In this document: in pieces, positions 3,815 to 29,466 of the stretch
Layout of the letters: each line of letters begins with the position of its first letter
Position numbering within the stretch: the first letter of the stretch is position 1
Assembly: GCF_900101985.1 (NCBI RefSeq)
Contig: NZ_FNAR01000003.1
Location: 124,001-188,000 of the forward strand
DNA: 64,000 bases
Reading direction: 5' to 3'
Source: Bhargavaea beijingensis
Lineage (GTDB): Bacteria > Bacillota > Bacilli > Bacillales_A > Planococcaceae
Notes under the pieces: model-generated
Told to the model about the DNA's origin: nothing
The model's input: the letters and a program-made list of their open reading frames with translations, nothing else
Database searches by the model: none
Program-made: the position numbers and the translations under genes

Positions 3815-3868
3815 AAAAAAACAAACAAACCGGAACAGACGGCAATTCCTGTTGCTCCGTTCCGGTTT
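3815..3868 (-). terminator. glpD terminator
   Basis: Arms AAACCGGAAC (3827-3836) and GTTCCGGTTT (3859-3868) pair perfectly, and the minus strand then reads a T-rich GTTTGTTTTTTTAGGG. It lies just downstream of the glpD stop codon. Confidence 0.8.
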
Positions 3869-3877
3869 ACCTCTTTC

Positions 3878-5506: not shown

Positions 5507-5540
5507 TATCGGTTCCCTCCATCGGGTGATGATCTGAAAG

Positions 5541-5601
5541 CAACAAAAAAAGAGACCTGAAGCAGGCATGATGGTCTCCCCATCACGCGCATCAGGTCTC
5601 T
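5541..5601 (-). promoter_or_regulatory. glpD leader terminator (GlpP antitermination target)
   Basis: In the untranslated leader, AGAGACCTGA (5551-5560) pairs perfectly with TCAGGTCTCT (5592-5601). An inner stem extends the pairing (GCATGATGG against CCATCACGC with one G-U-type mismatch). A TTTTTTTGTTG run follows on the minus strand. An intrinsic terminator between promoter and start codon is the arrangement established for the GlpP-controlled glpD leader in Bacillus. Confidence 0.85.
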
Positions 5602-5636
5602 CCGAGTCTCTCGACACATTCATTAACTTTGAGTCC

Positions 5637-5666
5637 ATTATACCAAAACGCTGCCTGCAGAATCAA
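5637..5666 (-). promoter_or_regulatory. glpD promoter
   Basis: Minus-strand -35 TTGATT (5661-5666), 18-bp spacer, perfect -10 TATAAT (5637-5642), placed so the transcript starts near AAGTTAAT and runs through the leader terminator. Confidence 0.75.
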
Positions 5667-5675
5667 TAAAACCGA

Positions 5676-8023
<2,348 letters not shown>

Positions 8024-8766: not shown

Positions 8767-8851
8767 GATTCTACTCCTCACTGTTCAATACGGACAGTTT
8801 ATCATCGGCAGGAAGGACCGGCAATCCGGGACCCTCCCCGGCATCCTAACA

Positions 8852-8880
8852 GAAAAAGAACCGGCAGCTGCCGGTTCTCT
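8852..8880 (-). terminator. patB terminator
   Basis: Perfect 20-bp palindrome GAACCGGCAG/CTGCCGGTTC followed on the minus strand by TTTTTCTG, immediately downstream of the aminotransferase-like gene. Confidence 0.85.
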
Positions 8881-8884
8881 CTGG

Positions 8885-14527: not shown

Positions 14528-15874
14528 TCAAACCGTTTCTGCCTGTTTGGAAGGTATTGGATCCTGTTTCCCTATTCCTTCGGTAAAATGATCCGGTTTG
14601 AACTTTGCCTTTATCTGCATTGCCACTAAATAAACAATCACTGACGCGATGAGAGACTGGACAGCAGGTATTCCGAATGTGCTAACGTACTGAGTCAAGT
14701 ATCCGACGAACGTACCGATAACCAGTGCAATCGTGGCCATCCAGTTCCATCCCTGCAGGTCTCGCCACTGCCTGCGGCGTATGAAGAAGAAATCTGCCAT
14801 CATTACGCCGGCGATGGCTGGATAAACGAGTGCTGTCATATACAGGAAATCCATGAAATAGTCAAGGATGCCGGCTAGCGCAATCACGATTGCAATAATC
14901 GTCCCGCCTAACGTCAGGAGTGCCCGTCCCCTATTTGAGTTCACATTGCATAGATTTGCAAGCGCCAGACCCATGCTATAGTTATTGACAAGTTGGCTCG
15001 TCCATGTGGCGAACCACAGGATCAGGAAGCCCCAGACCGGAAATCCAAGGCTCATCATGACATTGACGATATCGGCATCTCCTACTCCAACCGACATGAC
15101 CGCACCGACATAGAATAACGGGAAGCCAACGCCCACAATTCCAATTGGTATGAGAAGGTTATCCTTTATTCGCGGTTTCGCATACCGAGTGTAGTCGGCG
15201 GCAATGACCCACTGGGAGACATTAAGGCCGATGACGAGTGAAAGGTTCGCCAGGAATGTCATCTGGGGTTCAGGATTCCATGACATAATAGAATTCCATC
15301 CCGTATTTTTCAGGGCGTAATAAATACCTCCTGCTATGAGTAGAAGCCCTGCCGGGACTGCGATGTAATCCGTCCATTTCATGGAATTATAACCAATGAT
15401 GGAAGGTATCGCGAACGCAAGTCCTGCAACGGTTGTAACCATCGCCCATGGCCAAAACTCGTTCACATAATCAATGCCGAACATTGCAGAAATAGCGTTT
15501 CCCGCAACCGCTGTCTGCAAGGCCCACCAGCCGAGTGACACGATAAAAATAGTCATCCCAACGATGAATCTAGCTTGGGCAGCTCCAAAACTGGTACGAG
15601 CGATAACCGAGGAAGAACGTCCGGTTTTGGCGCCCATGTATCCGGAAATTGCATTTCCAATCCATTGAATAAGGACCAGGGCAACCAGCAACACCCAGAA
15701 GATTTCAGACATGCCGAATGAACCAGCGAGTGTGGCTCCCACCATCAGGACGGGAATGGTAAATTCCAGCCCCCCGAAAATCATGGCTGGTGTCAGCCAA
15801 TGTTGCCGTTTGTTTTCCGGAATAGCAGCCAATGCTTCATCTTTGCCGCCCCTTAGCGGTTTTGCATCTTCCAT
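14528..15874 (-). CDS. NCS1-family nucleobase/hydantoin permease
   Basis: 448 residues with about 12 hydrophobic segments. It belongs to the nucleobase:cation symporter-1 family (CodB/PucI/Mhp1 type), which imports cytosine, allantoin, uracil or hydantoins with Na+ or H+. Supporting segments are FGGLEFTIPVLMVGATL, GYMGAKTGRSSSVIARTSFG and SLGWWALQTAVAGNAIS, all typical of the CodB-like branch. It is the last gene of the five-gene unit with hyuA, hyuB, a cupin protein and an XRE-cupin regulator, so its substrate is probably the cyclic amide attacked by HyuAB. The start at 15874 is 20 bp after the cupin stop. Confidence 0.88.
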   Translation of the reverse strand: MEDAKPLRGGKDEALAAIPENKRQHWLTPAMIFGGLEFTIPVLMVGATLAGSFGMSEIFWVLLVALVLIQWIGNAISGYMGAKTGRSSSVIARTSFGAAQARFIVGMTIFIVSLGWWALQTAVAGNAISAMFGIDYVNEFWPWAMVTTVAGLAFAIPSIIGYNSMKWTDYIAVPAGLLLIAGGIYYALKNTGWNSIMSWNPEPQMTFLANLSLVIGLNVSQWVIAADYTRYAKPRIKDNLLIPIGIVGVGFPLFYVGAVMSVGVGDADIVNVMMSLGFPVWGFLILWFATWTSQLVNNYSMGLALANLCNVNSNRGRALLTLGGTIIAIVIALAGILDYFMDFLYMTALVYPAIAGVMMADFFFIRRRQWRDLQGWNWMATIALVIGTFVGYLTQYVSTFGIPAVQSLIASVIVYLVAMQIKAKFKPDHFTEGIGKQDPIPSKQAETV

Positions 15875-15894
15875 TCAATCCCCCCCTTTTCTGC

Positions 15895-16224
15895 TTATCC
15901 AACGAGCACAAAAACGAGTTCGCAATCTTCCTCTCCGTCGTTTGTTGCGATATGTTCTTCACCTTTAGGAATAAAAGTTGCATCCCCGGCACTGACCCGA
16001 ATCTTTTCGCCTCCGACTTCAGTGACAAGCGAACCTTTGAGAATAATGGAATACTCATTCTCTGCATGTTTAGATACACCGGTAAGTGGCACCTTTTCCC
16101 CTGTCCGGATCACAACTCGACCGACCTTTACTCCGGCATCACCTACAGACTCCTGGAATACCGTTTTCATGGAGTACGACTCATTGCCCTCTTCGATTAG
16201 ATCTGCAAGCTTTAGCACTTCCAT
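15895..16224 (-). CDS. Small single-domain cupin protein
   Basis: 109 residues made almost entirely of one cupin barrel: VGRVVIRTGEKVPLTGVSKHAE, NEYSIILKGSLVTEVGGE and GDATFIPKGEEHIATND carry the two conserved cupin motifs, with histidines that could bind a metal. Its start codon shares one base with the hyuB stop (TGATG), so translation is coupled. It could be a racemase, isomerase or ligand-binding accessory of the hydantoin-type pathway; a catalytic role cannot be assigned. The cupin in the adjacent regulator suggests both may bind related ligands, which is only an inference. Confidence 0.8.
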   Translation of the reverse strand: MEVLKLADLIEEGNESYSMKTVFQESVGDAGVKVGRVVIRTGEKVPLTGVSKHAENEYSIILKGSLVTEVGGEKIRVSAGDATFIPKGEEHIATNDGEEDCELVFVLVG

Positions 16225-17969
16225 CAGTTTTCCCTCTTTCCTGTAATACCATCGACCTGGAATGTTGTCGGATTTACTTTGACTCCATACTTCTCCTCTG
16301 CTTGAATGGCTGTCATATAACCATTCTTCACATCACGCGCCACTTGCTCGACGGGACGCTTGAGTGGATTCCCGTATCCTCCACCGGTTGCCGTCATTAG
16401 CTTGACGACATCGCCTTTGTCTAGCGGATAACGTGGGTACATGCCGAACGGCCCGTCCGTCGAACCGTCCTTTTTCTCAATGATAAACTCGTTTGGTGAG
16501 CCTTTTTCACCGCCATTCAACCCCCACGGATGGAACTTGTTCCTCCCAAACGTTGCAGAGACCATCTGCTTGTCAGTCATCGCTCGGTAACTTCGAATCA
16601 CACCGGCACCACCGATGAATTCACCGGCCCCCATCCCGTCAGTCTTTAAGCTGTACTCGTCAATCATGACACCATATCGAGTTTCCGCGACTTCCACAGG
16701 CACGTTATATGTTTCCCCGTCACCGATGCAGAATTGGCCTCGAGCGCCGTCTTGACCGCGCGCTGCTCCCCATCCTCCGGCAGACGGTTCAACAATTAGA
16801 AACGGTTCGCCGTTTACATGATGATTACCGGAGAGCGTCACGGCACATACCGATAGAAGTTGGCCGGCCGGCAAGCGATCTGGCAGGTGGGAGGCGAGCG
16901 CTTGCATGACAACGTCAGCTCCTCCCTGCATGGCTTCCCAATAAACAGAAACCGGAGCCGGTCGTTCCGCTGACAGAATCGAAGCCGGGTCAGTAATGAT
17001 TTCAAGCGGACGGAACACACCATCGTTAACATCTTGGGAAGGATTAGTGATTGCCAGGAAGACGGTGCGGACTGCCGAAACGAGACCGGTATAGGTAACG
17101 TTGACAGGTCCGGGAACTTGCGGATGTGATCCTCGAAAATCACAAATGAATTTATCTTCAGTAATAGTGACCTTTACCTGAACATGGAATGGTCCATTGC
17201 CGAATCCGTCATCATCTACGAAATCTTTCGCAAAGAACTCCCCCTTTGGAAGCTTCGCAAGTTCCTTCCTTGCCATCTGCTCACCATGATCAAGATAATT
17301 CTCAATCGCTGCCTTAACCGTCTGAGTGCCGTTCTTTTCACAAAGCTCACGCACACGTTTATCTCCGGTACGAATTGCTGCCACCTGAGCCCACAAATCT
17401 CCAAGTGACAGATTCGGGAAACGGACATTTGCCTCGATCATATCGATAATGGCCTGGTTAAGACGTCCTTCGTCATAAAGCTTGACGCATGGCAGTTGCA
17501 AACCTTCCTGGTAAATTTCTGTCGCATCATTGCTGAAAGAACCGGGATCCTTGCCCCCTACATCTGTCCAGTGAGCTTTATTGGCAGCAAATGCAATCAG
17601 CTCGCCGTCCACAAAAATCGGCATGACAAACCCGACATCGGACAAGTGAGAGCCACCGCCACCGTATGAGTCATTGATAATAATAATATCGCCAGGTTTC
17701 AGATCCCCTTCATTACCGAATTTTTTGAGGGTCTCCTTTACCATAAAGGTCAGCATCCCGATAAAACCTGTCACGCCATTTCCCTGAGTAAGCAGCTGGC
17801 CCTTTGCATCAGTCAGTCCACTCGCATAGTCAAGAACCTCATAAATAACCGGGCTCATGGATGTGCGTGCGAGCGTATGGAACATTTCCTCCCCAATAGC
17901 CACAAGAGAATCTTTTACAATCTCCAGAGTGAACGGATCCAACTTCTGATGTTCTTTAATCGCTGTCAT
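16224..17969 (-). CDS. hyuB: Hydantoinase B/oxoprolinase family subunit
   Basis: 581 residues. The beta subunit of ATP-dependent cyclic amide hydrolases (N-methylhydantoinase, acetone or acetophenone carboxylase, 5-oxoprolinase family). Recognisable segments are LDPFTLEIVKDSLVAIGEEM, LKPGDIIIINDSYGGGGSHL, AFAANKAHWTDVGG and, near the C-terminus, RGQDGARGQFCIGDGE and YGVMIDEYSLKTDGMGAGEF. Start 17969 is preferred over 17990: GGAGGTG lies within the end of hyuA, 9 nt before it. hyuA and hyuB are separated by one base and must act together; HyuA supplies the ATPase part. The substrate is not defined by sequence. Confidence 0.9.
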   Translation of the reverse strand: MTAIKEHQKLDPFTLEIVKDSLVAIGEEMFHTLARTSMSPVIYEVLDYASGLTDAKGQLLTQGNGVTGFIGMLTFMVKETLKKFGNEGDLKPGDIIIINDSYGGGGSHLSDVGFVMPIFVDGELIAFAANKAHWTDVGGKDPGSFSNDATEIYQEGLQLPCVKLYDEGRLNQAIIDMIEANVRFPNLSLGDLWAQVAAIRTGDKRVRELCEKNGTQTVKAAIENYLDHGEQMARKELAKLPKGEFFAKDFVDDDGFGNGPFHVQVKVTITEDKFICDFRGSHPQVPGPVNVTYTGLVSAVRTVFLAITNPSQDVNDGVFRPLEIITDPASILSAERPAPVSVYWEAMQGGADVVMQALASHLPDRLPAGQLLSVCAVTLSGNHHVNGEPFLIVEPSAGGWGAARGQDGARGQFCIGDGETYNVPVEVAETRYGVMIDEYSLKTDGMGAGEFIGGAGVIRSYRAMTDKQMVSATFGRNKFHPWGLNGGEKGSPNEFIIEKKDGSTDGPFGMYPRYPLDKGDVVKLMTATGGGYGNPLKRPVEQVARDVKNGYMTAIQAEEKYGVKVNPTTFQVDGITGKREN

Positions 17970-17970
17970 C

Positions 17971-20016
17971 TCAGCGCACCTCCGTTTCAATGATCAGGTT
18001 TCCATAATCGTCAATTAATGCAGATTGTCCTGGGTAAATCACCGTCACTGCTGCCTGCTCCTCGATGATTGCCGGTCCATTGAATGTCATATCTGGTCCC
18101 AGTTTCTGGCGGTCATACACGTCTGTATCTACCCAACCTTCCTGTTCATAGTAAACTGGGCGATTTTCCTTAAGCGCCTCAGTCACAGAACCCACACCGG
18201 TCTCCAGTTTCTTGAGTGTTGGTTTCTCAATGGATCCAAATGCAGTCAGATGTAGGTTGACAATCTCCGTCTCAGCATCTTCAATTTTGAACGTGTAGTT
18301 TTTCTCGTGTAACTCATGAAAATCGCATATTAGCTGTTGGATGGATTCTTGCGTAATGGGACCAGAGACAAGTGGTACTTTGACCGTATGTTCCTGTCCG
18401 GCATATCGCATATCTGCAAATCGAAGAAGACGGATATTTTCTTTGGCTATCTTCTCTTCCTGGAATTGGGCCGTTGCAGTGTCTGCAAGCTCATCCCATT
18501 CATTATTGAATTTTTTAAGATCAAGTCCGTTTACACGCGCGATGTACGTCTGGATATAATCGTGGCGCAAATCTGTCATCAGCATGCCCCATGCGGAAAA
18601 CACCGGAGACGCAATCGGCACGACAACCTTACCGACACCTAGCTCCTTGGCAAGTGCAGGTGCGTGCATAGAGCCGCCTCCCCCAAACGCGACAAGAGTG
18701 AAATCCCTGGGGTCATAGCCCTTCCTCACCGAAATCAGTTTTAGCGCGTTTAGCATATTGGAGTTGGCAATTCTGATGATACCGAGGGCTCCATCCTCCG
18801 GCTCCATACCGAACCGGTCTGCTACCTTTTCTTTAATGGCTTCTTTAACCCGTCCCATATCCACGTCATAATCAAAGTTTCCGGCGGACAAACGTCCGGT
18901 CAGCAAATTAGCGTCGGTAGTCGTCGGCTCTGTTCCACCTTGACCATATGCGACTGGGCCCGGGACAGAACCGGCAGACTGCGGTCCGACTTTTAATGCG
19001 CCGCCTTCGTCAATCCAGGCGATAGAGCCCCCGCCGTTACCGATTTCGACAATGTCAACAACCGGCGTCTTGATTGGATAACCGGCATTGTACTCGTCTT
19101 TTTCGATATAGTAATCTGTGGAAACTTTAACTTCACCGTCCGCGATCAGCGAGCATTTCGCCGTTGTTCCGCCGATATCAAACGCGATAATATTCTTTTC
19201 TCCGATGATTTCACCTAGGTATGCTGCCCCATATATCCCTGCAACAGGGCCCGACTCAACCATGTTAATCGGTGTCTGCTTTGCCTGCTCAAAAGTGGTA
19301 GTACCGCCATTTGACTGCATGATGTACCGGAGTTCGCCCGTGCCGAGTTCACCAAGTCTCCCATTTAAGCGGTTGATATACGACGAAGCGATCGGTTTCA
19401 CATATGAGTTGAGCACTGCTGTGTTGGTCCGCTCGTATTCGCGCCACTCTTTTGTCACTTCATGGGATGCGGTGACAGCCACTTCTGGCCAGAGCTTTTC
19501 AATCAGTTCTACTGTTCGGATTTCATGTGCCGGGTTTTTATAAGCATGGAGGTAGGCAACAGCAATGGCATCGACGTTTTCCTTCTTGAAATAGTCAACC
19601 AGCTCTTTAATACGCTCCTCATCTAGTGGTAAGACTACTTCACCCAACTGATTCATTCGCTCCGATACTTCTTGCCGGAGATAACGCTCGACAAATGGTT
19701 CCGGCTTCTCATAGCGAAGGTTGAATAGATCAGGACGGTTGCCCCGTGCTATTTCCAATACGTCACGGAAGCCGGCAGTCGTAATAAGGCCGGTAGTAAC
19801 GCCTGTTCGCTCAGTCAGCGCATTGATGATCACTGTCGTTCCATGGATAAAGGTCTGAATCGACTGCGGATCGACCTCGCTCTTGCTGATTACATCAATG
19901 ACACCCTGCTCAAAGTTCGGTGGGGTTGTCGGACTCTTGGCAACTCCGATATTCCCTTCTCCATCCACATATACTAAGTCCGTAAACGTTCCACCAATAT
20001 CAGTTGCCACTCTCAT
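17971..20016 (-). CDS. hyuA: Hydantoinase A/oxoprolinase family subunit (ATPase)
   Basis: 681 residues. The alpha subunit carries the actin/hexokinase-like ATP site: MRVATDIGGTFTDLVYVDGE at the N-terminus (Hydant_A_N domain, about 1-180) and FDIGGTTAKCSLIADGEV near residue 275 (Hydantoinase_A domain). GNGGGSIAWID and FGGGGSMHAPALAKELG are further family marks. With HyuB it phosphorylates and opens a cyclic amide such as a hydantoin or 5-oxoproline; the carboxylase branch is a less likely alternative because no third small subunit is present. It begins 24 bp after the XRE-cupin regulator, so regulator and enzyme are co-transcribed. Confidence 0.9.
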   Translation of the reverse strand: MRVATDIGGTFTDLVYVDGEGNIGVAKSPTTPPNFEQGVIDVISKSEVDPQSIQTFIHGTTVIINALTERTGVTTGLITTAGFRDVLEIARGNRPDLFNLRYEKPEPFVERYLRQEVSERMNQLGEVVLPLDEERIKELVDYFKKENVDAIAVAYLHAYKNPAHEIRTVELIEKLWPEVAVTASHEVTKEWREYERTNTAVLNSYVKPIASSYINRLNGRLGELGTGELRYIMQSNGGTTTFEQAKQTPINMVESGPVAGIYGAAYLGEIIGEKNIIAFDIGGTTAKCSLIADGEVKVSTDYYIEKDEYNAGYPIKTPVVDIVEIGNGGGSIAWIDEGGALKVGPQSAGSVPGPVAYGQGGTEPTTTDANLLTGRLSAGNFDYDVDMGRVKEAIKEKVADRFGMEPEDGALGIIRIANSNMLNALKLISVRKGYDPRDFTLVAFGGGGSMHAPALAKELGVGKVVVPIASPVFSAWGMLMTDLRHDYIQTYIARVNGLDLKKFNNEWDELADTATAQFQEEKIAKENIRLLRFADMRYAGQEHTVKVPLVSGPITQESIQQLICDFHELHEKNYTFKIEDAETEIVNLHLTAFGSIEKPTLKKLETGVGSVTEALKENRPVYYEQEGWVDTDVYDRQKLGPDMTFNGPAIIEEQAAVTVIYPGQSALIDDYGNLIIETEVR

Positions 20017-20040
20017 TCGTTTCTCCCCCTATAATCAATG

Positions 20041-20580
20041 TCAGAATACAACAGGTGTGACGATACTAAGCAATACGGCCTCTTCGTCCAAAAGGTTTTC
20101 CCAGCCGTGCGGAACTTGAGAAGGAAAATGAATGGTGTCTCCCTTGCGCACAATATACTCCGTGTCATCCAAGTGAATCAGTATGTTTCCTTTGACGACA
20201 TAGTAAAATTCTTCGCCAGGATGAGAATCTAGCTCCTGCTTTACTCTTGGAGCAAGCTTCACCAAAATCGGCTCAAGCCCCCGTCCTTCAAACTCGCCAT
20301 TAAGCCGGGCGTAAATGATCGGAGACCCCTCAAGCTGGAACGATTTTTGTTCCTCCTTCTTTAGAACATAATGCACATTATTATCCGTCAGAAAAAACTG
20401 ACGGATTGGTACACTGAATGATTCGGCGATTTTTTTTAATGACGTGATGGCCAGCGAAGACGAACCGCGTTCCACTTGCGATAGAAAGCTGATGGACAAA
20501 CCAGTTTTGTTGCTAAGATCCTTCAATGTATATCCGTTAGATTGCCGGAGACGTTTAATCTCTTTGTAAACCTCTTCCAT
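20041..20580 (-). CDS. XRE-cupin regulator of the hyu operon
   Basis: 179 residues: HTH at about 6-60 (YTLKDLSNKTGLSISFLSQ, then VERG) and cupin at about 105-175 (GEEFYYVVKGNILIHLDD, GDTIHFPSQVPHGW). It is the first gene of the hyu operon, followed after 24 bp by hyuA. It aligns without gaps to the 179-residue protein at 20774-21313, and both contain FLSQVERGSSSLAITSLKKI, so the two arose by duplication. A TTGAAA-N6-TTTCAA palindrome (20668-20685) lies upstream of the start and is a candidate autoregulatory operator. The ligand is probably the pathway substrate or product; that is inference from operon position. Confidence 0.9.
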   Translation of the reverse strand: MEEVYKEIKRLRQSNGYTLKDLSNKTGLSISFLSQVERGSSSLAITSLKKIAESFSVPIRQFFLTDNNVHYVLKKEEQKSFQLEGSPIIYARLNGEFEGRGLEPILVKLAPRVKQELDSHPGEEFYYVVKGNILIHLDDTEYIVRKGDTIHFPSQVPHGWENLLDEEAVLLSIVTPVVF

Positions 20581-20667
20581 AGACCCTCTCCCATAACCTA
20601 TGACAAAAAATCGTAAAAATTGAACCTATATTGAATTAATTTCGATAATAGCATAAATAAAAATCAA

Positions 20668-20685
20668 TTGAAAGAATAATTTCAA
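20668..20685. promoter_or_regulatory. TTGAAA-N6-TTTCAA palindrome upstream of the hyu operon
   Basis: Perfect 6-bp arms in an AT-rich 160-bp gap. The TTGAA half-site is shared with the palindrome in front of the other XRE-cupin gene (1307-1323). A candidate -10, TATTAT, lies about 35 bp downstream on the minus strand, but no clean -35 is evident. Confidence 0.4.
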
Positions 20686-20715
20686 CATTCAAGACAATAT
20701 TTTTTCAACAAATAA

Positions 20716-20747
20716 CGGATATTTCGCCTGGAAGTGCGAAATATCCG
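20716..20747 (-). terminator. Terminator of second XRE-cupin gene
   Basis: Perfect 12-bp arms CGGATATTTCGC (20716-20727) and GCGAAATATCCG (20736-20747) with an 8-nt loop; the minus strand then reads TTATTTGTTGAAAAA. It separates this gene from the hyu operon. Confidence 0.75.
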
Positions 20748-20773
20748 CTTCGTCTGTTGCACGTATATAGTTA

Positions 20774-21313
20774 CTAAAAAATCGCGGGGGTTAGAATACA
20801 TAAAAACGAGGATTCATCGTTTAGTGGATTTTCCCATGAATGAGGGAGGTTTGATGGAAAGTGAATAGTGTCGCCTTCCCTCATAAAGTATTCTTTCCCG
20901 TCTACCGTAAACAAGGCTCCCCCTTTCAGAACATAGTAAAACTCTTCACCCGGGTGCGAGTCTCTGACCTGTTTTTCGCCAGGAGCGAGCGTGACCAGAA
21001 GCGGTTCCAGGGTTCGGCCACCAAACTCCCCACTAAGCCGTGCATAGACAGCTGATGAGCCTTCCAAGCGGAACGGCTTTCGCTCGTCTGTTCTCAATAA
21101 ATAATTATGGTTCTGCTCAGACTCAAAAAATTGGGTGATCGGAACACCAAATGCATCTGCAATTTTCTTGAGTGATGTAATTGCGAGAGATGAGCTACCA
21201 CGTTCAACCTGTGATAGAAAACTGACAGACAGATTAGTTCGCTCGCTTAGTTCTTTCAATGTAAATCCCTGTTCCAGCCGAAGCCGCTTGATCTCTTGGT
21301 AGATTTCCTCCAA
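20774..21313 (-). CDS. XRE-cupin regulator, paralogue of the hyu regulator
   Basis: 179 residues: HTH (FTLKELSERTNLSVSFLSQ, then VERG) and cupin (GEEFYYVLKGGALFTVDG, GDTIHFPSNLPHSWEN). It is colinear with its neighbour at 20041-20580. It stands alone between terminators, with its own promoter and a TAGCAATGAATTGCTA palindrome upstream, so it is not co-transcribed with hyuA. A different upstream palindrome suggests the duplicates have diverged in DNA target. Whether it controls the hyu operon, itself, or genes elsewhere cannot be told from position alone. Confidence 0.88.
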   Translation of the reverse strand: MEEIYQEIKRLRLEQGFTLKELSERTNLSVSFLSQVERGSSSLAITSLKKIADAFGVPITQFFESEQNHNYLLRTDERKPFRLEGSSAVYARLSGEFGGRTLEPLLVTLAPGEKQVRDSHPGEEFYYVLKGGALFTVDGKEYFMREGDTIHFPSNLPHSWENPLNDESSFLCILTPAIF

Positions 21314-21471: not shown

Positions 21472-22641
21472 TTAACTGCATTCACTAACAAACGCCACTT
21501 CTCCCCGGCAAAGCGTCAGCCGGATATTCAACTCATCATCGGCCAGAATCAGATCCGCATCCTTGCCTTCACGGATGCCGCCTTTCCGGCCATCAACCCC
21601 GAGCTGGCGGGCCGGATTTTGTGATGCCATCTTCACGATGTCTTCCATTGTGACCCCGTCGATATCCAGCATTCGCCGGGCACCTTCGTTCATTTTCAGG
21701 ATGCTGCCGGCAAGTGTTCCGTCCGCCAGTTCCGCGCGGTCTTCGGTCACCCTGACAGGCTGCCCGCCGAGTTCGTATTCCCCCGGCGAAAGCCCCTTGG
21801 CCCGCATGGAGTCGGTGATGAGGATGAGCCGGTCGGGTCCGATGTTCCGCCAGATCAGACGCAGCATCTGTTCCTCCACATGGATGCCGTCGGCAATCAG
21901 CTCCGCTTTCAGCGCATCCAGAAGAAAAGCCGCTCCAACCACGCCGACATCACGGTGATGGATGCCCGGCATCGCGTTGCACAGGTGGGTCACCTGGCTG
22001 ACGCCCTGAACCTCGGCTTTCTTCATTCCGGTGAATCCCGTGTCGGTATGTCCTGCCGAGACGACCACTCCAGACTCGGCCAGCTCCCGGATCAATCCTC
22101 CCTCCGGGTCATGTTCCGGGGCCATTGTGATCACTCTGATCCGTCCGCCGGATAGCTGCTGCCACTTCCGGAACAGGCCGGGATCGGGTGCCACGATATA
22201 AGCTTCCGGCTGCGCGCCGGCACGCTTTTTCTCCACGAAGGGACCTTCCAGGTGCACGCCGAGCACTTCCGCCTGCCCCGGACGATTCGGATATTCCGCG
22301 ACGTTTTCGAGCGCATTGCCGATCGCCTCATGGGCCTGGGTAATGGTCGTCGCAAGGAAAGACGTCGTCCCTTCTGCCGGCAGGAAGCGGGCTATCGTAT
22401 CAAGTGCCTGTTCCGTCGCATCCATGACATCCGCCCCGTCCGCGCCATGGATATGGCTGTCGATAAATCCGGGGAGGACGTTCAGGGAAGAGGCGTCGAT
22501 TTCCTTCGCCCCTTCAGAAAGTCTCTCCGGCCGAACGCCGGACACGCCGGCAATCTTGCCGTCCCGCACGAGCACATATCCGTTTTCCAGAACCCCTTCT
22601 TCAGCATATACGGTCGCTCCACTAATCAACATCGGTTCCAT
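21472..22641 (-). CDS. nagA: N-acetylglucosamine-6-phosphate deacetylase
   Basis: 389 residues. It converts GlcNAc-6-P to glucosamine-6-P and acetate, the step after NanE in sialic acid breakdown. An amidohydrolase-fold TIM barrel: LPGFIDSHIHGADGADVMDA carries the HxH metal-site region, GVHLEGPFV has the metal-binding glutamate, SAGHTDTGF and THLCNAMPGIHHRD hold further histidine ligands, and LITDSMRAKG has the catalytic aspartate. The start at 22641 is chosen because AAGGA lies 8 nt upstream; the first ATG at 22650 overlaps that site. No nagB follows, so the deaminase must be encoded elsewhere. It is preceded by the RpiR regulator and ROK kinase in the same direction. Confidence 0.95.
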   Translation of the reverse strand: MEPMLISGATVYAEEGVLENGYVLVRDGKIAGVSGVRPERLSEGAKEIDASSLNVLPGFIDSHIHGADGADVMDATEQALDTIARFLPAEGTTSFLATTITQAHEAIGNALENVAEYPNRPGQAEVLGVHLEGPFVEKKRAGAQPEAYIVAPDPGLFRKWQQLSGGRIRVITMAPEHDPEGGLIRELAESGVVVSAGHTDTGFTGMKKAEVQGVSQVTHLCNAMPGIHHRDVGVVGAAFLLDALKAELIADGIHVEEQMLRLIWRNIGPDRLILITDSMRAKGLSPGEYELGGQPVRVTEDRAELADGTLAGSILKMNEGARRMLDIDGVTMEDIVKMASQNPARQLGVDGRKGGIREGKDADLILADDELNIRLTLCRGEVAFVSECS

Positions 22642-22660
22642 TTCTCTCATCCTTCCCGTG

Positions 22661-23494
22661 TCAGTACAATTTCCCTGAGATGCTGTCGGATACTTCTCGT
22701 TTCACCCGTTCCGCTTCTTCGTAATTTTTCATCGTCAGCCCGGTGCAGATCAGGTCGACCAAATACAGCTGGGCCACTTTCGATACGAGAGAACCGCTGT
22801 CCAGCGGGCTTTCCTTCGCTGACGTCAGGAGGATATGGTCGGCATACTTGGTCAGCGGAGATTTCACATAGTTCGTCAAAGCGACGACTCTCGCCTTTTT
22901 CTCCTTGGCGACACGGACCGCATCGACGATATCCTTTGTTCCGCCGGTGAGGCTGATCGCAATCACGACAGATTTTTCATTTAGCGAAGCCGCGCGCATC
23001 ATCTGGAAGTGCGAATCGGTTACGACGCTCGTATGCTTCCCGATCCTCATGAGGCGGTGCTGCATATCAAGCCCGGCGATGCCGGATGAACCGATGCCGA
23101 AAATGACGACATCATCCGACCGGTCGATCGCTTCGATGCTTGAGGACAATTCGTCATGATTGACCACATTATGCGTATCGCGGATGGCTTGGACCATGTT
23201 TTCCCGGATCCGCTCAAGATACGTTTCTCCCTGGTCGGTCCCGGCTTCGGCAATCTCCCTGGCAAATAAAAACTTAAAATCCTGGAACCCTTTGTATCCG
23301 AGCTTCCGGAGAAAGCGGAGCGCCGTTGCCTCAGCAACCCCGCACGCATCCGAGAATTCGGTCAGGGAATGATAGATGACCTGTTCAGGATGTCCGAGAA
23401 TATACGCATAGATTTTCTGTTCAGATTTCGTGAATAGGTGCTTATGCTGCTCCATGACAACGGATGGCTTTACATGGGTGAGCGGACTGTTCAT
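22661..23494 (-). CDS. RpiR/MurR-family regulator, likely controlling nan genes
   Basis: 277 residues. An N-terminal RpiR-type helix-turn-helix domain (about 1-85, with FTKSEQKIYAYILGHPE and GVAEATALRFLRKLGYKGF) is followed by a SIS sugar-phosphate isomerase-like domain (about 125-260, DDVVIFGIGSSGIAG, VIAISLTGGTKDIVDAV). This family senses phosphosugars; in sialic acid loci of Gram-positives the member (NanR type) responds to ManNAc-6-P or GlcNAc-6-P. It lies between the ROK kinase and nagA with gaps of 15 and 19 bp. The palindrome upstream of nanE is its most plausible target. Confidence 0.9.
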   Translation of the reverse strand: MNSPLTHVKPSVVMEQHKHLFTKSEQKIYAYILGHPEQVIYHSLTEFSDACGVAEATALRFLRKLGYKGFQDFKFLFAREIAEAGTDQGETYLERIRENMVQAIRDTHNVVNHDELSSSIEAIDRSDDVVIFGIGSSGIAGLDMQHRLMRIGKHTSVVTDSHFQMMRAASLNEKSVVIAISLTGGTKDIVDAVRVAKEKKARVVALTNYVKSPLTKYADHILLTSAKESPLDSGSLVSKVAQLYLVDLICTGLTMKNYEEAERVKREVSDSISGKLY

Positions 23495-23509: not shown

Positions 23510-24415
23510 TCAGTTTTTCCGGCTTACCATGAAATGATGGGCCGCTCCGAGCAGGTTTGCCCGGTTGCCCTGTTCCGCCAAGCGGACTTCAAGCGCTTGG
23601 CGATGATTCGGCATGACTTTCTCCCGCAGGGCATTTTCGATCGCACGCCTGAGCATCTCGCCCTGTTCAGAAACGCCGCCGCCGATAATGATGCATTCCG
23701 GGTTAAACACATGGACAAGCGACTGGAGACCTGTTGCAATATCATCCACCCAACGGCCGAAAATCTCCAATGCTTTCTTTTCTCCATCCTTTACCAGCCT
23801 GAAGAACGCTTCAAGATCAGGCTTGCCCCCATACGCATCCCGGATCAGCCCGATGAGTGCCGAAGCCGAGGCGTACTGTTCATAGCAGCCTCTGTTTCCG
23901 CACGTGCACGGCTTCCCGCCCGGATACAGCGAAATGTGTCCGATTTCGCCGGCAGAATACGCAGACCCGGTGTAAAGACGGCCGTCCAAAAACAGCGCTC
24001 CGCCGATCCCTGTCCCGATCGTCATACAGACAAAGTTCCGGACGCCTCTGCCTGCTCCTTTCCAATGCTCGCCGAGCGCCGTGCAGTTCACGTCATTCTC
24101 GACCGTGACCGGCAGCCCCGTATGCCTGCTGATCCGCTCTGCGACTGGCGTCCCTGTGTAACCCGGGATATTGTCCGTGGCAAACACGACTGAACCGTTC
24201 CGGTTGTTGATCTGCCCTGCCGAGCTGATGGCAATTCCTTCTATTGTAAAACGTCCACGGAGTGCGTCGGAGATCTTGCATACTTTCTCAACGACCGCAT
24301 TTCCTCCCCGCCACGCCTCCGTCGGCGCGGAATCATGGTGGATCAGCTCACCCGTCTCGCTGAGGACCCCATATTTAATGGACGTTCCGCCGATATCAAT
24401 CACGCCAAGCACCAT
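23510..24415 (-). CDS. nanK: ROK-family kinase, probably N-acetylmannosamine kinase
   Basis: 301 residues. ROK sugar kinases phosphorylate hexoses with ATP. The first phosphate loop is VIDIGGTSIKYGVL; GTGIGGALFLDGRLYTG is the second; the zinc site is formed by the histidine of GEIGHISL plus the cysteine cluster CTCGNRGCYE. The catalytic aspartate lies in ENDVNCTALGE. Family members include glucokinases and NanK; assignment to ManNAc rests on placement in the nan locus. It follows a strong terminator after the flavoprotein gene, so its transcription may need readthrough or a promoter in the short 24416-24470 gap. Confidence 0.85.
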   Translation of the reverse strand: MVLGVIDIGGTSIKYGVLSETGELIHHDSAPTEAWRGGNAVVEKVCKISDALRGRFTIEGIAISSAGQINNRNGSVVFATDNIPGYTGTPVAERISRHTGLPVTVENDVNCTALGEHWKGAGRGVRNFVCMTIGTGIGGALFLDGRLYTGSAYSAGEIGHISLYPGGKPCTCGNRGCYEQYASASALIGLIRDAYGGKPDLEAFFRLVKDGEKKALEIFGRWVDDIATGLQSLVHVFNPECIIIGGGVSEQGEMLRRAIENALREKVMPNHRQALEVRLAEQGNRANLLGAAHHFMVSRKN

Positions 24416-24470
24416 AGTCTTCCCTCTTTTCTGTTTCTATTGTTAGTCTCATTTCCACGATTGTCCATTG

Positions 24471-24507
24471 AAAAAGAGAAAAACCCGTGACAGGTTTTTC
24501 TCTTTTT
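24471..24507 (-). terminator. Terminator inside the nan cluster
   Basis: AAAAAGAGAAAAACC (24471-24485) pairs perfectly with GGTTTTTCTCTTTTT (24493-24507) around a 7-nt loop. It separates nanE-nanA-nanT-flavoprotein from nanK-regulator-nagA and implies differential expression. Confidence 0.8.
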
Positions 24508-24521
24508 CTGCCTTTCGGCTG

Positions 24522-26213
24522 TCATTCATCCAGGAATTCAAGATGCACATCACCATCCGGCCTTGCCGAAACAAATAGCCTGCGGCTGAACGCCTCGTCT
24601 TCTTCCGGATAATCTTCGCGGTAGTGGGCCCCCCTGCTTTCCCTGCGTTCCAGCATCGCAAGAAGCAAGACTTGGGATAGCATCAGGAAATTCCGCACCT
24701 TGAAGGCCAGCTGCCGTTTGTCCGGCCGGCTGATGAGCAGCGGCAAGTCCACCGCTTGCTCCAGATTCCGGATTTCCTCCAACGCAGCGGTCAATCCCTT
24801 TTCGGACCGGACGACGTTTGCGTGATACCAAAGGATTTCCCTGATTTTCTCGGTCACCGCCCTCGCCCGTTCCGCAGCGGCCTCCGCATCCGTATCGTCT
24901 GCCGAAGCCGGGTCGCCGAACATCCCGGACAGGCGACCTGCCGCGACAGCTTCGTCGGCATTTCCGTGAGAAACCGTGCCGATATAGCCGGCGCAGTCCT
25001 CGGCAGCCCGCTTCCCGAACACCATGCAGGCACCTGTGGAGTTGCCGCCGAGCCGGTTCGCCCCCTCGATGTTGCAGGAGAGTTCGCCGATGACGTACAG
25101 GCCGTCCACCCCAGTCCGTCCCCGGGAATCGATCAACACTCCGCCGTTGCTCGCATGGGCGAACGGGGCGATTCGGATCTCGTCTTCCGCCAGGTCGACG
25201 TTCCGTTCCTTTAGCCAGTCCAGATAAACGGTATAAAACTCTTCCTTATTCTCATAGATGGCCGGATTGAACAGCAGCCTAAACCCTTTCTCGTTCCCCG
25301 TTTCAGCGATCCGTTTCATCATGGCGATATCGAAATACCTGGATTCCAGAGAATGCGTAAATGGTCCGTGAGTGCTCCGGATCTCCATGCAATCCCTCAT
25401 GCCGAGGCCTTCCGGAAGCATCGGCAGGAGAAGGCTCTTCCCCTCCCCGTCCACGATATCCTCGCAGTACATGAGAGTATGCTCGCCGAAAAGCGTCTTG
25501 TATTTCGGCGCAGTGATGCCCGGGATGAATTGGATAAATTCCATGTTCACGAGGCGGGCCCCCGCCTCCATTGCAAGAACATGACCTGATCCGTCCACAT
25601 CATTCGGGTTCAGGTTGTGCTTATAGATCGAACCGAATCCGCCGGTCGCAAGGATGGCCGCCTTGCATCGGACAAGCACGAGCTCATTGTTTTCATCCAG
25701 CAGCACGGCGCCGGTCACCCGGCCGCTTTCCTTGATCAGCGTCAGGATGACCGTCTTTTCCATGACGGAAAGCGTGTCATACCGTGCGAAGATCTCGCCG
25801 ACCTTCCGCCGGATGCGGTCCCAGTCGCTCAGCAGGTAAATATTCCGGGCATTCGGCGCAAAGCAGGCCTTCCGCTCTCCGTCCAGCTTTTTCGCAGCCA
25901 CTCCGATTTCGGGATATTCCCTGACCCGCTCCGGAATTTCATGGACATACACTTCGGCGAGGTCCTGCCTATACATCCCGCGGCTCATTTCTTCGATGTC
26001 TTCCAGAAACTTCTGCTCGTCTTCGGCATCTTTGGTCACCTGGGTGCCGAGGGAGGCTTTCAGCGGATAGAAACTGGATCCGGACGCGATCTTCATCTTC
26101 GTCACCATGAGAACCCGATGCCCGAGGTCCGAAAGCTCTTTTGCCGCCTTGATGCCGGCCAGTCCGCTTCCCGCGACGAGCACATCCGTTTCGATTGTTT
26201 TCCTGATCTCCAT
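24522..26213 (-). CDS. Fumarate reductase/succinate dehydrogenase-like flavoprotein in the nan locus
   Basis: 563 residues from ATG 26213 (a GTG at 26222 is possible). The N-terminal FAD motif DVLVAGSGLAGIKAAKELSD, ILATGGFGSIYK, and the C-terminal GLYVIGELSCNIEGANRLGG with NSTGACMVFGKRAAED place it in the FrdA/SdhA/NadB family; the tail ESRGAHYREDYPEEDEAF is also typical. HASNGGVLID is the counterpart of the active-site HYTMGG loop, and SLESRYFDIAM may supply the catalytic arginine. The segment SSFYPLKASLGTQV stands where covalently flavinylated subunits have a histidine, so FAD is probably non-covalent, as in L-aspartate oxidase. No iron-sulfur or membrane-anchor subunit adjoins. It sits 33 bp after nanT in the nanEAT unit. 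No known sialic acid step needs it; function unassigned. Confidence 0.85.
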   Translation of the reverse strand: MEIRKTIETDVLVAGSGLAGIKAAKELSDLGHRVLMVTKMKIASGSSFYPLKASLGTQVTKDAEDEQKFLEDIEEMSRGMYRQDLAEVYVHEIPERVREYPEIGVAAKKLDGERKACFAPNARNIYLLSDWDRIRRKVGEIFARYDTLSVMEKTVILTLIKESGRVTGAVLLDENNELVLVRCKAAILATGGFGSIYKHNLNPNDVDGSGHVLAMEAGARLVNMEFIQFIPGITAPKYKTLFGEHTLMYCEDIVDGEGKSLLLPMLPEGLGMRDCMEIRSTHGPFTHSLESRYFDIAMMKRIAETGNEKGFRLLFNPAIYENKEEFYTVYLDWLKERNVDLAEDEIRIAPFAHASNGGVLIDSRGRTGVDGLYVIGELSCNIEGANRLGGNSTGACMVFGKRAAEDCAGYIGTVSHGNADEAVAAGRLSGMFGDPASADDTDAEAAAERARAVTEKIREILWYHANVVRSEKGLTAALEEIRNLEQAVDLPLLISRPDKRQLAFKVRNFLMLSQVLLLAMLERRESRGAHYREDYPEEDEAFSRRLFVSARPDGDVHLEFLDE

Positions 26214-26246: not shown

Positions 26247-27740
26247 TCAGTTGGACGCTTGATCGTAAAACGTCATGTCCCCGTCTTCGGCTTTGCTTTT
26301 CTCTTTGAACAGCAGGCTGAAACCATAGCCGAAGATCAGCGAAGCCATCAGGTTAATGATCGAATACGCCCAGAGAGTAATGTCTGTAAAATACGAAATG
26401 TAAATGGCCAGTGCCGTAGTGGCGATAAATCCGAGAAGCGCACCTTTTGCATTGGCCTTTTTCGTCATGACGCCAAGCGTGAATGTGCCGCCGATAATCC
26501 CGAGGGCCAGTCCCATGAGACCGTTGAACCATTCGTAGGCCGAGCTGACATCGGAGTACGCAAGCAGGATGGCGAATCCAATCGAGAAAACTCCGACAAG
26601 TGCCGATACGACACGTGCGATCTTCGTGCTTTTCTCATCGCTCATCCCCGGCTTGAACACATTCTGGATGTCCAGTGTCCAGCTGGTCGCGACACTGTTC
26701 AGGCCCGTCGACAGCGTCGACTGCCCGGCCGCGAACAGGCCGGCGATCAGCAGGCCGGAAATCCCGACCGGCAGCTCACTGACGATGTAATTGGCAAAGA
26801 TCAAATCGCCCTTGCCGTCCGGCATCGCGCCGCCCTGCTGTGTATAGAACGTGTAGAGCGCTGTCCCGATAAAGAAGAACAGGGTTGCTGTCCCGAGGGA
26901 CAACAGGCCGTTCAAATAAGTCATCTTGTTCATCTCTTTGGTATCGTTCGTTGTCAGGTAGCGCTGGACCATGTCCTGGCTCGAGATGTACGAAAACGCA
27001 GTCGATAGCCCCGCACCAAAGATCAGAAGCAGGATGCTGTTGTTGACGAAGTTCAGATCGAACAGCGGCATGTCCGTGAAGAACTTTCCGTTATCCGTAC
27101 CGGTCCTGAACACTTCACCGATTCCGCCGTCTATTGAGAACAGCAGGAAGATCAGGGCGAAGACGCCTCCGCCGATCAGGACGACGCCTTGGATAAAGTC
27201 CGTCCATAGAACGGATTTGATACCGCCGAACGCGGAGTAGATCGTCGCGATGACCCCCATGAACAGGATGATCAGGACGGTATTGATGCCGGTGACCGCG
27301 CTCAGTGCGATGGCCGGCAAGTACATGATGATCGACATGCGGCCGATCTGGTAGACGATGAACAGGACGCTGCCGATCATCCTCATCTTCACATCAAAGC
27401 GCCGCTCCAGATATTCATAGGCCGTGTCCAGATTCAGCTTTCGGTAGACCGGAAGGAAAAAGTAGATTGCGACCGGCACGGCAATAAACAGGCCAAGCTG
27501 CGCGAACCAAAGTTCCCAGGAGCCGAGATAGGAGTTTCCAGCCAGAGAAAGGAACGAAATCGGGCTGAGCAACGTGGCAAACAAGCTGACGGATGTGACC
27601 CACCACGGGATTGAGCCGTCCCCCTTAAAAAACTCTTTGCCCTGCATCTCCTTTTTCGCGACGGCAATCCCCACATAAAGGATGAACAGCAGGTAAGCGA
27701 ACAAAATCACGTAGTCGATGACTGCAAATGTACCACCCAT
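26247..27740 (-). CDS. nanT: SSS-family sodium:sialic acid symporter
   Basis: 497 residues with about 13 hydrophobic segments. The sodium:solute symporter fold is supported by FAYLLFILYVGIAVAKKEMQ, the GDGSIPWWVTSVSLFATLLS region of TM1-2, and AGLFAAGQSTLSTGLNSVATS, which carries the serines of the sodium site in TM8. In Staphylococcus and other Gram-positives this family provides the Na+-coupled Neu5Ac importer. Position 20 bp after nanA and before the flavoprotein supports this role; a related N-acyl sugar remains possible. ATG at 27740 follows AAGGGGG at 7 nt. Confidence 0.9.
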   Translation of the reverse strand: MGGTFAVIDYVILFAYLLFILYVGIAVAKKEMQGKEFFKGDGSIPWWVTSVSLFATLLSPISFLSLAGNSYLGSWELWFAQLGLFIAVPVAIYFFLPVYRKLNLDTAYEYLERRFDVKMRMIGSVLFIVYQIGRMSIIMYLPAIALSAVTGINTVLIILFMGVIATIYSAFGGIKSVLWTDFIQGVVLIGGGVFALIFLLFSIDGGIGEVFRTGTDNGKFFTDMPLFDLNFVNNSILLLIFGAGLSTAFSYISSQDMVQRYLTTNDTKEMNKMTYLNGLLSLGTATLFFFIGTALYTFYTQQGGAMPDGKGDLIFANYIVSELPVGISGLLIAGLFAAGQSTLSTGLNSVATSWTLDIQNVFKPGMSDEKSTKIARVVSALVGVFSIGFAILLAYSDVSSAYEWFNGLMGLALGIIGGTFTLGVMTKKANAKGALLGFIATTALAIYISYFTDITLWAYSIINLMASLIFGYGFSLLFKEKSKAEDGDMTFYDQASN

Positions 27741-27760: not shown

Positions 27761-28627
27761 TCAGCAGTATTTCACTGCCATCGCTTTCGCGTTTTTGACT
27801 TTGTCTTCAGTCAGGCGCTTCATCGGCTTCCTGCAATAGCCGGCGTCGACGCCCTTTGCCTTCAGGATTTCTTTGATTGTCTGGTAGAGTCCGTTCGCCA
27901 GGATTTCCGCGATCAGATCGTTCGTCACTTTCTGGATTTCGCGGGCTTCATCAATCCGGCTTTCCTTGGCAAGCGCATAAATCTGCTTGGCACGCTGGCC
28001 GTTGACATTGAACGTGCTGCCGATTGCACCGTCCACGTTGAGAACCGCTGCGGAAAGCAGCATTTCGTCAAATCCGGAATAAATCAGTTTGTCCGGGAAG
28101 GCATGGCGGATTCTCTCCAGAAGGAAGAAGTCCGGTGCCGTAAACTTCACACCAATGACTTTCTCGTTCTCGAACAGCTCCGCAAATTGATCGAGGTTCA
28201 TGCTGACGCCTGTCAGAGCAGGGATCGAATAGATGATCATCTTGTTGTCGACGTTCTCAAGAATCGTGTTGTAGTAGTCCTTGACTTCTTCAAAGTCAAA
28301 GCGGTAATAAAACGGTGTGACCGCGGACAGGGCATCATACCCGAGGTCTGTTGCGTATTGGGCCAGTTCGACCGCTTCGTCGATATCCAGCGCCCCGACC
28401 TGGGCAATCAGCTTGACCTCGTCCTTTACTTCATCCTTGACGATTTCAAACACTTTCTTTTTCTGGTCCGCGGACATGAGGAAGTTCTCCCCTGAGCTTC
28501 CGTTCACATAAAGACCGTCCACTTTTTGCACATCGATATTGTGTCGCACGATTTCACGCAGGCCTTTTTCGTTTACCTGGCCTTTCTCATCAAACGAGCA
28601 AATCAGTGCCGTAAAAATTCCGTTCAT
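27761..28627 (-). CDS. nanA: N-acetylneuraminate lyase
   Basis: 288 residues. A class I aldolase that splits Neu5Ac into ManNAc and pyruvate. TIM-barrel features: LYVNGSSGENFLMSADQKKK (carboxylate-binding GSSGE loop), YYNTILENVDNKMIIYSIP containing the catalytic tyrosine, and VIGVKFTAPDFFLLERIR, whose lysine forms the Schiff base with pyruvate. The closest style is the Staphylococcus-type lyase. It is 33 bp downstream of nanE and 20 bp upstream of nanT. ATG at 28627 follows AAGGTGAG. Confidence 0.96.
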   Translation of the reverse strand: MNGIFTALICSFDEKGQVNEKGLREIVRHNIDVQKVDGLYVNGSSGENFLMSADQKKKVFEIVKDEVKDEVKLIAQVGALDIDEAVELAQYATDLGYDALSAVTPFYYRFDFEEVKDYYNTILENVDNKMIIYSIPALTGVSMNLDQFAELFENEKVIGVKFTAPDFFLLERIRHAFPDKLIYSGFDEMLLSAAVLNVDGAIGSTFNVNGQRAKQIYALAKESRIDEAREIQKVTNDLIAEILANGLYQTIKEILKAKGVDAGYCRKPMKRLTEDKVKNAKAMAVKYC

Positions 28628-28660: not shown

Positions 28661-29341
28661 TTATGCCTGCCCGTCCATGGCATCCGCAAACTTTTTCGTA
28701 ATCAGCTGAGGGCGGGTGATTGCTCCGCCAACCACTACCGCATGGGCACCGATCCGGAGCGCCTCCCGCGCTTTGTCCGGTGTATCGATATTACCTTCCG
28801 CGATGACGGGAACCGACACGCGGGAGACGGTTTCCTCCAACGCATCAAGCGGCAAATGCCCTTCCGTGTAGGGGGTGTAACCCACGAGTGTCGTCGCGAC
28901 GATGTCGACGCCCGCCCGCTCCGCCTCGACCGCTTCGTCAGCGCTCGAACAGTCGGCCATGAACAGCTGATCCGGGAATGAAGCCTTTACTTCGCCGAAG
29001 AAATCCGCGAACGTCTTACCGTCCGGCCGCTTTCTGCCCGTCGCGTCGAACGCGATGACATCAACACCTTCCTCAACCAGTTCCGAGACTTCCTTGAAGG
29101 TCGGCGTGATAAAAACGGGATGATCTCCGTAATTTTTCTTGACGATGCCGATGATCGGCAGGTCTACTTCCTTCTTGATCGCACGGATATCCTTGACCGT
29201 GTTGGCCCGGATTCCCGCGGCGCCGCCGATTTTGGCCGCCAATGCCATCTTGCCCATGATATAAGGGTCATGGAGGGGCTCATCCTCGAGCGCCTGGCAA
29301 GAGACGATCAGCCGGCCCTTCAGCATTTCCAAACTATCCAT
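28661..29341 (-). CDS. nanE: N-acetylmannosamine-6-phosphate 2-epimerase
   Basis: 226 residues. It converts ManNAc-6-P to GlcNAc-6-P. TIM-barrel family marks: [19 protein letters not shown] at the N-terminus, [33 protein letters not shown] with the catalytic lysine, [34 protein letters not shown], and [21 protein letters not shown] plus [17 protein letters not shown]. It is the first gene of the nan unit, directly behind a strong promoter with a cre. Confidence 0.96.
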
Positions 29342-29420: not shown

Positions 29421-29466
29421 AATATATCACTTTTGATAATTGATTGTCAAAAACTTTCGAGAAAGT
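29421..29466 (-). promoter_or_regulatory. nan promoter with upstream palindrome
   Basis: Minus-strand -35 TTGACA (29445-29450), 18-bp spacer, -10 TATATT (29421-29426). Directly upstream, ACTTTC-GA-GAAAGT (29453-29466, plus-strand reading) is a perfect palindrome and a candidate site for the RpiR-family regulator. Confidence 0.75.

Follow-up and report, generated by a model that had tools for sequence, protein, structure and literature searches.

In its usual depiction, sialic acid catabolism needs no more than NanA, NanK, NanE, NagA, YhcH/NanM and NanOx. Here we describe a further gene, encoding a 563-residue flavoprotein of the FrdA/NadB type, in the nan operon of Bhargavaea beijingensis, on a 64,000-nucleotide stretch of contig NZ_FNAR01000003.1 (positions 124,001 to 188,000; hereafter the window). 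To judge by its surroundings in related genomes, the flavoprotein truly belongs to sialic acid loci and is conserved there beyond chance – and a flavoenzyme kept in nan loci across several Bacillota genera suggests that the textbook pathway misses a step or a substrate. On balance, it is probably an accessory enzyme of the nan pathway acting on a sialic-acid-type monocarboxylate, a degree of confidence that belongs to this broad role and not to any specific reaction.

By fold, the closest described enzymes are L-aspartate oxidase (NadB) – a soluble oxidase without partner subunits, which needs neither a histidine for covalent attachment of flavin adenine dinucleotide (FAD) nor an iron–sulphur (FeS) partner – and the fumarate reductase flavoprotein FrdA. 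In urocanate reductase (UrdA), of the same superfamily, the substrate carboxylate is bound by Arg560 and His520, Arg411 is the general acid, and hydride is delivered to the carbon β to the clamped carboxylate; the Arg411Ala exchange stops even hydride transfer (PMC10882135). By pathway, the closest is NanOx/NanY (YjhC), which oxidises C4 and thereby makes dehydro and anhydro sialic acids usable with no net change in redox state (PMC7535918 and PMC7315737). Like the flavoprotein, NanOx/NanY is a redox enzyme seemingly unneeded in a nan operon, and the two are possibly functional counterparts; they differ in that NanOx/NanY is a Gfo/Idh/MocA enzyme using NAD, whereas the flavoprotein has an FAD fold of another superfamily.

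The open-access literature yielded no description of such a flavoprotein in nan loci, subscription papers and bioRxiv lying mostly outside the scope of the search, so that absence from print is not proven; the accessible portions of papers on accessory nan enzymes do not contain the terms FAD or flavin, save in fadR. As far as literature searches show, then, the fold and the operon are known, whereas the clade and its operon role are undescribed. If the enzyme oxidises a sialic acid as tentatively proposed below, it would be, to our knowledge, the first of the FrdA-type flavoenzymes to act on a sugar acid. It would also show the fumarate reductase active site rebuilt for sugar acids.

Conservation with nan genes

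A scan of genome contigs found 163 relatives; the genes flanking the best 80 were read, and the 35 with phmmer scores of at least 380 bits were taken as the close set. Among these close relatives (38–87% identity), 32 have nanE, nanK and a NanA-type aldolase within their flanks. Among the 45 distant relatives, nanE or nanK was found in none and a NanA-like aldolase in one (L104, from an Aerophobetes metagenome-assembled genome, or MAG); 11 of the 45 distant loci are shorter than 10 kb, so that a neighbour may be missed, and 20 span at least 18 kb, while none of the 35 close loci is under 10 kb. The preliminary description of this DNA had suggested such a survey and would have been contradicted by relatives lying usually outside nan loci; nearly all of the close ones lie within them.

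The hosts of the 35 are Bhargavaea, Planococcus, Mesobacillus, Bacillus, Neobacillus, Peribacillus, Fredinandcohnia, Oceanobacillus, Halobacillus, Lentibacillus and Scopulibacillus, joined by a Spirochaetales MAG (44% identity) and Photobacterium damselae (38%). Most of their loci fall into two types. Type A (19 of 35) has the order seen in the window – nanE-nanA-nanT-flavoprotein-nanK-rpiR – with nanT immediately before and nanK immediately after the flavoprotein gene in all 19. Type B (13 of 35) combines a NanA2-type aldolase, a sugar-type ABC transporter, nanE, nanK and rpiR, with a GDSL esterase in 11 of the 13; the sialic acid anomerase family YhcH (DUF386) immediately precedes the flavoprotein in 11 of the 13 as well, and in one type-B locus (L066) the flavoprotein gene is divergent.

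The remaining loci are organised differently. In Neobacillus bataviensis (L057), a NanA2-type aldolase and an Opp-type transporter stand beside the flavoprotein, and nanE is elsewhere in the genome; a 482-residue protein with no Pfam match is encoded between the transporter and the flavoprotein (8404–9849 of that locus). In P. damselae (L067), the order is SSS transporter, flavoprotein, GDSL esterase, again with nanE elsewhere. The Spirochaetales locus (L062, 28–13655) has two flavoprotein copies flanking a Gfo/Idh-like protein, followed by two BNR (sialidase-like) proteins with no obvious signal peptide, and also holds an Opp-type ABC transporter, a DHDPS-family aldolase and an HpcH/HpaI aldolase; the whole may be a route for intact sialoconjugates.

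The gene nonetheless looks like an optional addition to nan loci. In the window's taxonomic family, 10 of 261 genomes match the flavoprotein at E ≤ 1e-50, one of them (G219) through a distant homologue with no nan genes in the stretch fetched (L201); nanE is present in all nine genomes with true members vs 50 of the remaining 252. Eight loci (L209–L215 and L217) share the transporter and gene order yet lack the flavoprotein, although L209 is a 4.3-kb contig ending ahead of rpiR. In a midpoint-rooted nanT tree, with 10 of 26 inner branches well supported, these loci fall at two places among those having the flavoprotein – L217, on a long branch, and L209–L215 – which suggests losses. Because of these eight loci, the pathway for N-acetylneuraminic acid (Neu5Ac) probably runs without the enzyme, which should therefore add something and is probably not essential to Neu5Ac use.

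Fold and active site

Both FAD_binding_2 and Succ_DH_flav_C match the flavoprotein above the Pfam gathering score. Its best NCBIfam scores are with TfrA, NadB and FrdA/SdhA-type models, yet the best 25 of the 60 models matched all score under their cut-offs, the top one at 223 vs 718 bits required; for NadB, the scores are 212 vs 639 (PRK07804) and 192 vs 453 (TIGR00551). In an AlphaFold2 model (pLDDT 83.8, pTM 0.88), VIA-align indicates a tie between L-aspartate oxidase (1chu, 5kxj; Z 38.1 over 454–457 residues) and FrdA (1kf6; Z 37.5 over 528 residues), with SdhA (7d6v) at Z 36.4 and UrdA (6t85) at Z 29.7. By its Pfam domains and the alignment of this model, the protein belongs to the complex II flavoprotein/NadB fold superfamily. 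Residues 40–60, where FrdA has its covalent-FAD histidine, contain no histidine – as the preliminary description had noted – and no obvious signal peptide was seen by eye; the source genome has a separate homologue in a 587-residue frame.

The likeness to known members goes only so far. From NadB, with which it shares the H351/R386 pair, the flavoprotein differs in sequence (about 25% identity), in the replacement of H244, T259, R263 and R290, in scoring under every NadB cut-off given above, and in its place in nan loci. With FrdA and SdhA it shares the fold, both Pfam domains and the carboxylate-binding Arg/His pair; in contrast to them it has no covalent-FAD histidine and no FeS or anchor gene among the scanned neighbours, and has lost the general-acid arginine and the second carboxylate clamp.

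These residues were compared by alignment of 36 family members with FrdA, SdhA and NadB of Escherichia coli (MG1655 record); FrdA numbering, and the equivalence to residues of UrdA and flavocytochrome c3, are as we take the literature to give them. The pair that holds a carboxylate is retained: FrdA R390 corresponds to R387 (36 of 36) and H355 to H353 (35 of 36, with Gln in a Spirochaetales copy). The second clamp is gone, H232 being replaced by Ile in all 36 and T244 by Gly in 35. In the proton relay, the glutamate (E244, FrdA E245) is kept, and the position of R248 is not arginine in the 36 members. No conserved arginine occupies the place of the general acid R287 under any alignment used: four alignments fill it differently, with F285, H287 (two alignments) or R273, and position 273 varies among K, Q, E, R, D and N, as does position 287 among H, N, D, S and C. 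A replacement of this arginine by phenylalanine is the reading of one alignment among the four. Of the residues expected of fumarate reductase or succinate dehydrogenase – R287, the E245/R248 relay and the H232/T244 clamp – the glutamate alone thus remains.

R279 (35 of 36), in the same loop as the lost general-acid arginine, could in principle stand in for it. Residues invariant in this family only include R114, C117, F118, R123, W131, H199, H211, Y238, Y249, C250 and N356. As in UrdA, whose carboxylate-binding Arg560 and His520 are the counterparts of FrdA R390 and H355, a monocarboxylate is predicted to be held by an Arg/His pair; UrdA has its general acid Arg411 (PMC10882135), whereas the flavoprotein family has no conserved counterpart. 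The single clamp and the rebuilt pocket would fit a sialic acid, as a monocarboxylate, for substrate. Fumarate-style reduction of a double bond, on the other hand, is unlikely because the proton-donating arginine is missing. The idea in the preliminary description that a substrate whose carbon–carbon double bond adjoins a carboxylate suits the chemistry of this family is not supported as far as reduction of that bond goes: the arginine is not conserved, and its removal in UrdA blocks hydride transfer (PMC10882135).

Proposed role and rival explanations

Starting from locus membership, conservation, the predicted fold, the loss of fumarate-type catalytic residues, the one clamp kept and the absence from some similar nan loci, we infer a substrate, an attacked carbon and an electron acceptor as follows. 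The flavoprotein would be a soluble, non-covalent FAD enzyme on the fumarate reductase/L-aspartate oxidase scaffold, in which R387 and H353 hold the single carboxylate of a sialic-acid-type substrate over the flavin. It would act ahead of NanA, giving the cell access to a sialic acid in a form not usable through NanA alone. A hydroxyl – C4 being the obvious one – would be oxidised by the flavin, perhaps transiently and in redox-neutral fashion as in the unrelated NAD enzyme NanOx/NanY, and the unsaturated, anhydro or otherwise blocked sialic acid would then be hydrated or released as Neu5Ac; were the oxidation net, the electrons would pass to oxygen or to a soluble carrier, much as they do in L-aspartate oxidase.

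Such oxidation, by the flavin, of a hydroxyl on the ring or the chain, maybe transient, is the likeliest mechanism we can name, though a tentative one. Hydride abstraction from a hydroxyl-bearing carbon requires only a base, and hydroxyl oxidation, transient or net, would match the active-site residues at least as well as double-bond reduction; an unsaturated or anhydro sialic acid is a possible substrate through a reaction other than such reduction. No electron carrier, FeS subunit or membrane anchor was found among the recurring neighbours of the 35 relatives, and nan genes that recur without an electron carrier suit a redox-neutral enzyme or an oxidase. With the same tentativeness, the flavoprotein may constitute a second, independently evolved route to non-canonical sialic acids, the FrdA scaffold running a NanOx-type cycle of oxidation, elimination, hydration and reduction, or an equivalent oxidation on an undescribed form of sialic acid.

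The distribution of NanOx/NanY itself was compared with this in view. It occurs in one of 37 genomes with the flavoprotein vs 12 of 61 controls without (Fisher p 0.016, uncorrected for kinship). Of these twelve, nine come from 31 control genomes of the window's family that were selected by the presence of nanE and an aldolase, and three from 30 genomes elsewhere in the class that were selected by a match to NanA. At the level of loci, it was found in none of 39 rows with the flavoprotein (three of them second copies of counted loci) vs 4 of 31 without. Because related genomes are counted separately, the anti-association is suggestive but weak.

Several observations weigh against the proposed role or its NanOx-like form. 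The comparison just given ignores kinship and draws its control genomes by criteria other than those of the test set, and NanOx/NanY is likewise found in none of the 13 loci that have a window-type NanA and no flavoprotein. A link to anhydro-forming sialidases was considered and dropped: the large sialidases adjoining the flavoprotein loci L041 and L066 score 506 and 516 bits with exo-α-sialidases, presumably hydrolytic ones of the NanI type, compared with 263/255 for the intramolecular trans-sialidase 1sli, 222/230 for the anhydrosialidase 4x47, 129/127 for sialidase B and 116/124 for NanC. They thus look hydrolytic and lend no support to anhydro or dehydro sialic acids; a BNR_2 (sialidase-type) match is present in just 12 of the 37 flavoprotein genomes. 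In the Spirochaetales MAG, the Gfo/Idh-like protein between the two flavoprotein copies is 21% identical to YjhC, and no NanE match was found in the assembly. The neighbour census, moreover, covers the recurring genes.

A further point concerns the distant relatives, five of which, at about 30% identity (L025, L069, L070, L194 and L195), also have no general-acid arginine in the one alignment used. TRAP transporter genes stand, by Pfam, beside each of the four whose neighbours were read – DctM in L025, DctP in L069, L070 and L195 – and L025 also has an acyl-CoA dehydrogenase (Pfam), as apparently does L069 (by eye). Since these TRAP-linked relatives share the altered active site, its origin was not tied to sialic acid; it seems to predate the move into nan loci. 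The loss of the arginine accordingly reaches a wider set of flavoproteins without an assigned role, some of them TRAP-linked. One such locus, L195 (4547–14997), has a weakly NanA-like aldolase, a LacI-like regulator, DctP, a Gfo/Idh-like protein and two SDR-like proteins (identified by eye except DctP), and is likely a sugar-acid pathway using the same type of flavoprotein.

Among other explanations, the flavoprotein is unlikely to be an enzyme of net oxidation (an oxidase or dehydrogenase) through which sialic acid, or an oxidised form of it, enters a side path or is salvaged, although this is the least unlikely of the alternatives. Decarboxylation of Neu5Ac by H2O2 gives a 2-deoxy-3-hydroxy octonic acid, an example of such a substrate; most hosts found are Bacillota, of genera that are generally aerobic, and L-aspartate oxidase is the closest fold. 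A hydroxyl β to the carboxylate would, moreover, sit at the family's position of hydride transfer, going by UrdA (PMC10882135). Yet the loci share no recurring gene that would process such a product further, and the flavoprotein is also present in the Spirochaetales MAG and P. damselae. Slightly less likely again is an enzyme for some other modified sialic or nonulosonic acid – a C4 or C8 epimer, or a keto or ester-bearing form – partnered with the GDSL esterase. A GDSL/SGNH esterase is enriched in the type-B loci (11 of 13, and beside the P. damselae copy, vs 4 of 18 flavoprotein-free loci with a NanA2-type aldolase, groups that are not phylogenetically matched); however, it is found in none of the 19 type-A loci, nor among the window genes scanned. 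The esterase link points to modified sialic acids in general, and it is for these reasons – NanOx/NanY, sialidases and esterase together – that most weight rests on the broad statement of an accessory nan enzyme, and a clearly smaller, tentative share on the NanOx-like form.

Fumarate-reductase-like reduction of the C2=C3 bond of 2-deoxy-2,3-didehydro-Neu5Ac (Neu5Ac2en) or a relative is improbable. The fold and the single-carboxylate clamp are present, the β carbon targeted by hydride in UrdA would equal C3 of Neu5Ac2en (PMC10882135), and the transporter encoded beside the flavoprotein belongs to the SSS type, in which the SiaX members of sialic acid group ST5 carry Neu5Ac2en besides Neu5Ac (PMC10955332). 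Against this stand the 36 members without a conserved general-acid or relay arginine, the effect of Arg411Ala in UrdA, and the failure of any electron-donor gene to recur; on chemical grounds, the product, 2-deoxy-Neu5Ac, should also be a dead end for NanA. Most improbable of all is that one of the standard enzymes, be it fumarate reductase, succinate dehydrogenase or L-aspartate oxidase, came to lie in the operon by chance: the Pfam domains, the fold and the identity of the best NCBIfam models agree with it, but those scores fall far under their cut-offs, catalytic residues are lost, the gene is conserved with nan genes, and the genome has its separate homologue in the 587-residue frame.

Gene organisation in the window

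All genes of the cluster lie on one strand, in the order nanE-nanA-nanT-flavoprotein, hairpin, nanK-rpiR-nagA (Table 1). NanA, NanE and NagA are named by NCBIfam equivalog or subfamily cut-offs, with which Pfam agrees. The flavoprotein gene starts 33 bp behind nanT, and the 19-bp hairpin that follows it is likely a terminator; most simply, the flavoprotein gene would close a transcription unit that begins with nanE-nanA-nanT and is regulated as a whole. The open reading frame, its neighbours and the hairpin were all confirmed as first described, and so was the lack of an FeS or anchor partner, with none among 15 neighbouring window genes (13537–36376) by Pfam scan.

Table 1. Genes and signals around the flavoprotein gene, in window coordinates
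Feature	Position	Strand	Basis and remarks
Flavoprotein gene	24522..26213	-	ATG at 26213; 563 aa; FAD_binding_2 + Succ_DH_flav_C
nanT, SSS-family symporter	26247..27740	-	Pfam; best solved relative 5nv9 (putative sodium:solute symporter; presumably SiaT of Proteus mirabilis), E 3e-97
nanA, N-acetylneuraminate lyase	27761..28627	-	TIGR00683 and PRK04147 above cut-off
nanE, N-acetylmannosamine-6-phosphate 2-epimerase	28661..29341	-	PF04131; PRK01130 above cut-off
nanK-type ROK sugar kinase	23510..24415	-	Beyond hairpin; Pfam ROK; under NCBIfam NanK cut-offs
MurR/RpiR-family regulator with SIS domain	22661..23494	-	Named by Pfam family only
nagA, N-acetylglucosamine-6-phosphate deacetylase	21472..22650	-	TIGR00221 above cut-off
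Inverted repeat (hairpin), 19 bp	24470..24508	-	1-nt spacer; 95% complementary; between flavoprotein gene and nanK
Sigma-70-like promoter site TTGACA-18-TATATT	29421..29450	-	11/12 matches; upstream of nanE
22-bp inverted repeat TTTTGACAAT-CA-ATTATCAAAA	29431..29452	.	Overlaps promoter-like site just upstream of nanE

The inverted repeat over the promoter-like site is likely an operator. It has no second match at ≤4 mismatches anywhere in the 64-kb window, and in 14 of the 19 related loci of type A a version of it (≤4 mismatches) lies within 200 bp of where nanE starts, with ≤3 mismatches in 11 of these 14. Since the + strands of the 35 loci hold 13 further matches at ≤4 mismatches in other places, isolated weak matches carry little meaning.

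Past nagA, the window (14528–21313) encodes two paralogous XRE-cupin regulators, hydantoinase A and B subunits, a cupin protein and a cytosine/purine/allantoin-type permease; this hydantoinase/permease block also adjoins nagA in L033 and L036, and was not found beside nagA in L034 and L035. In L033, from a sister Bhargavaea strain, TctC, TctB, TctA, a second FAD_binding_2 protein (502 residues) and a Na+/sulfate-type symporter lie directly upstream of nanE (732–6653), a group absent from the window that recalls what we take to be tricarballylate-type clusters. At the far end of the window (58257–63966) are Opp-type ABC transporter genes, the closest matches in the window to the flavoprotein-adjoining transporters of L057 and L062.

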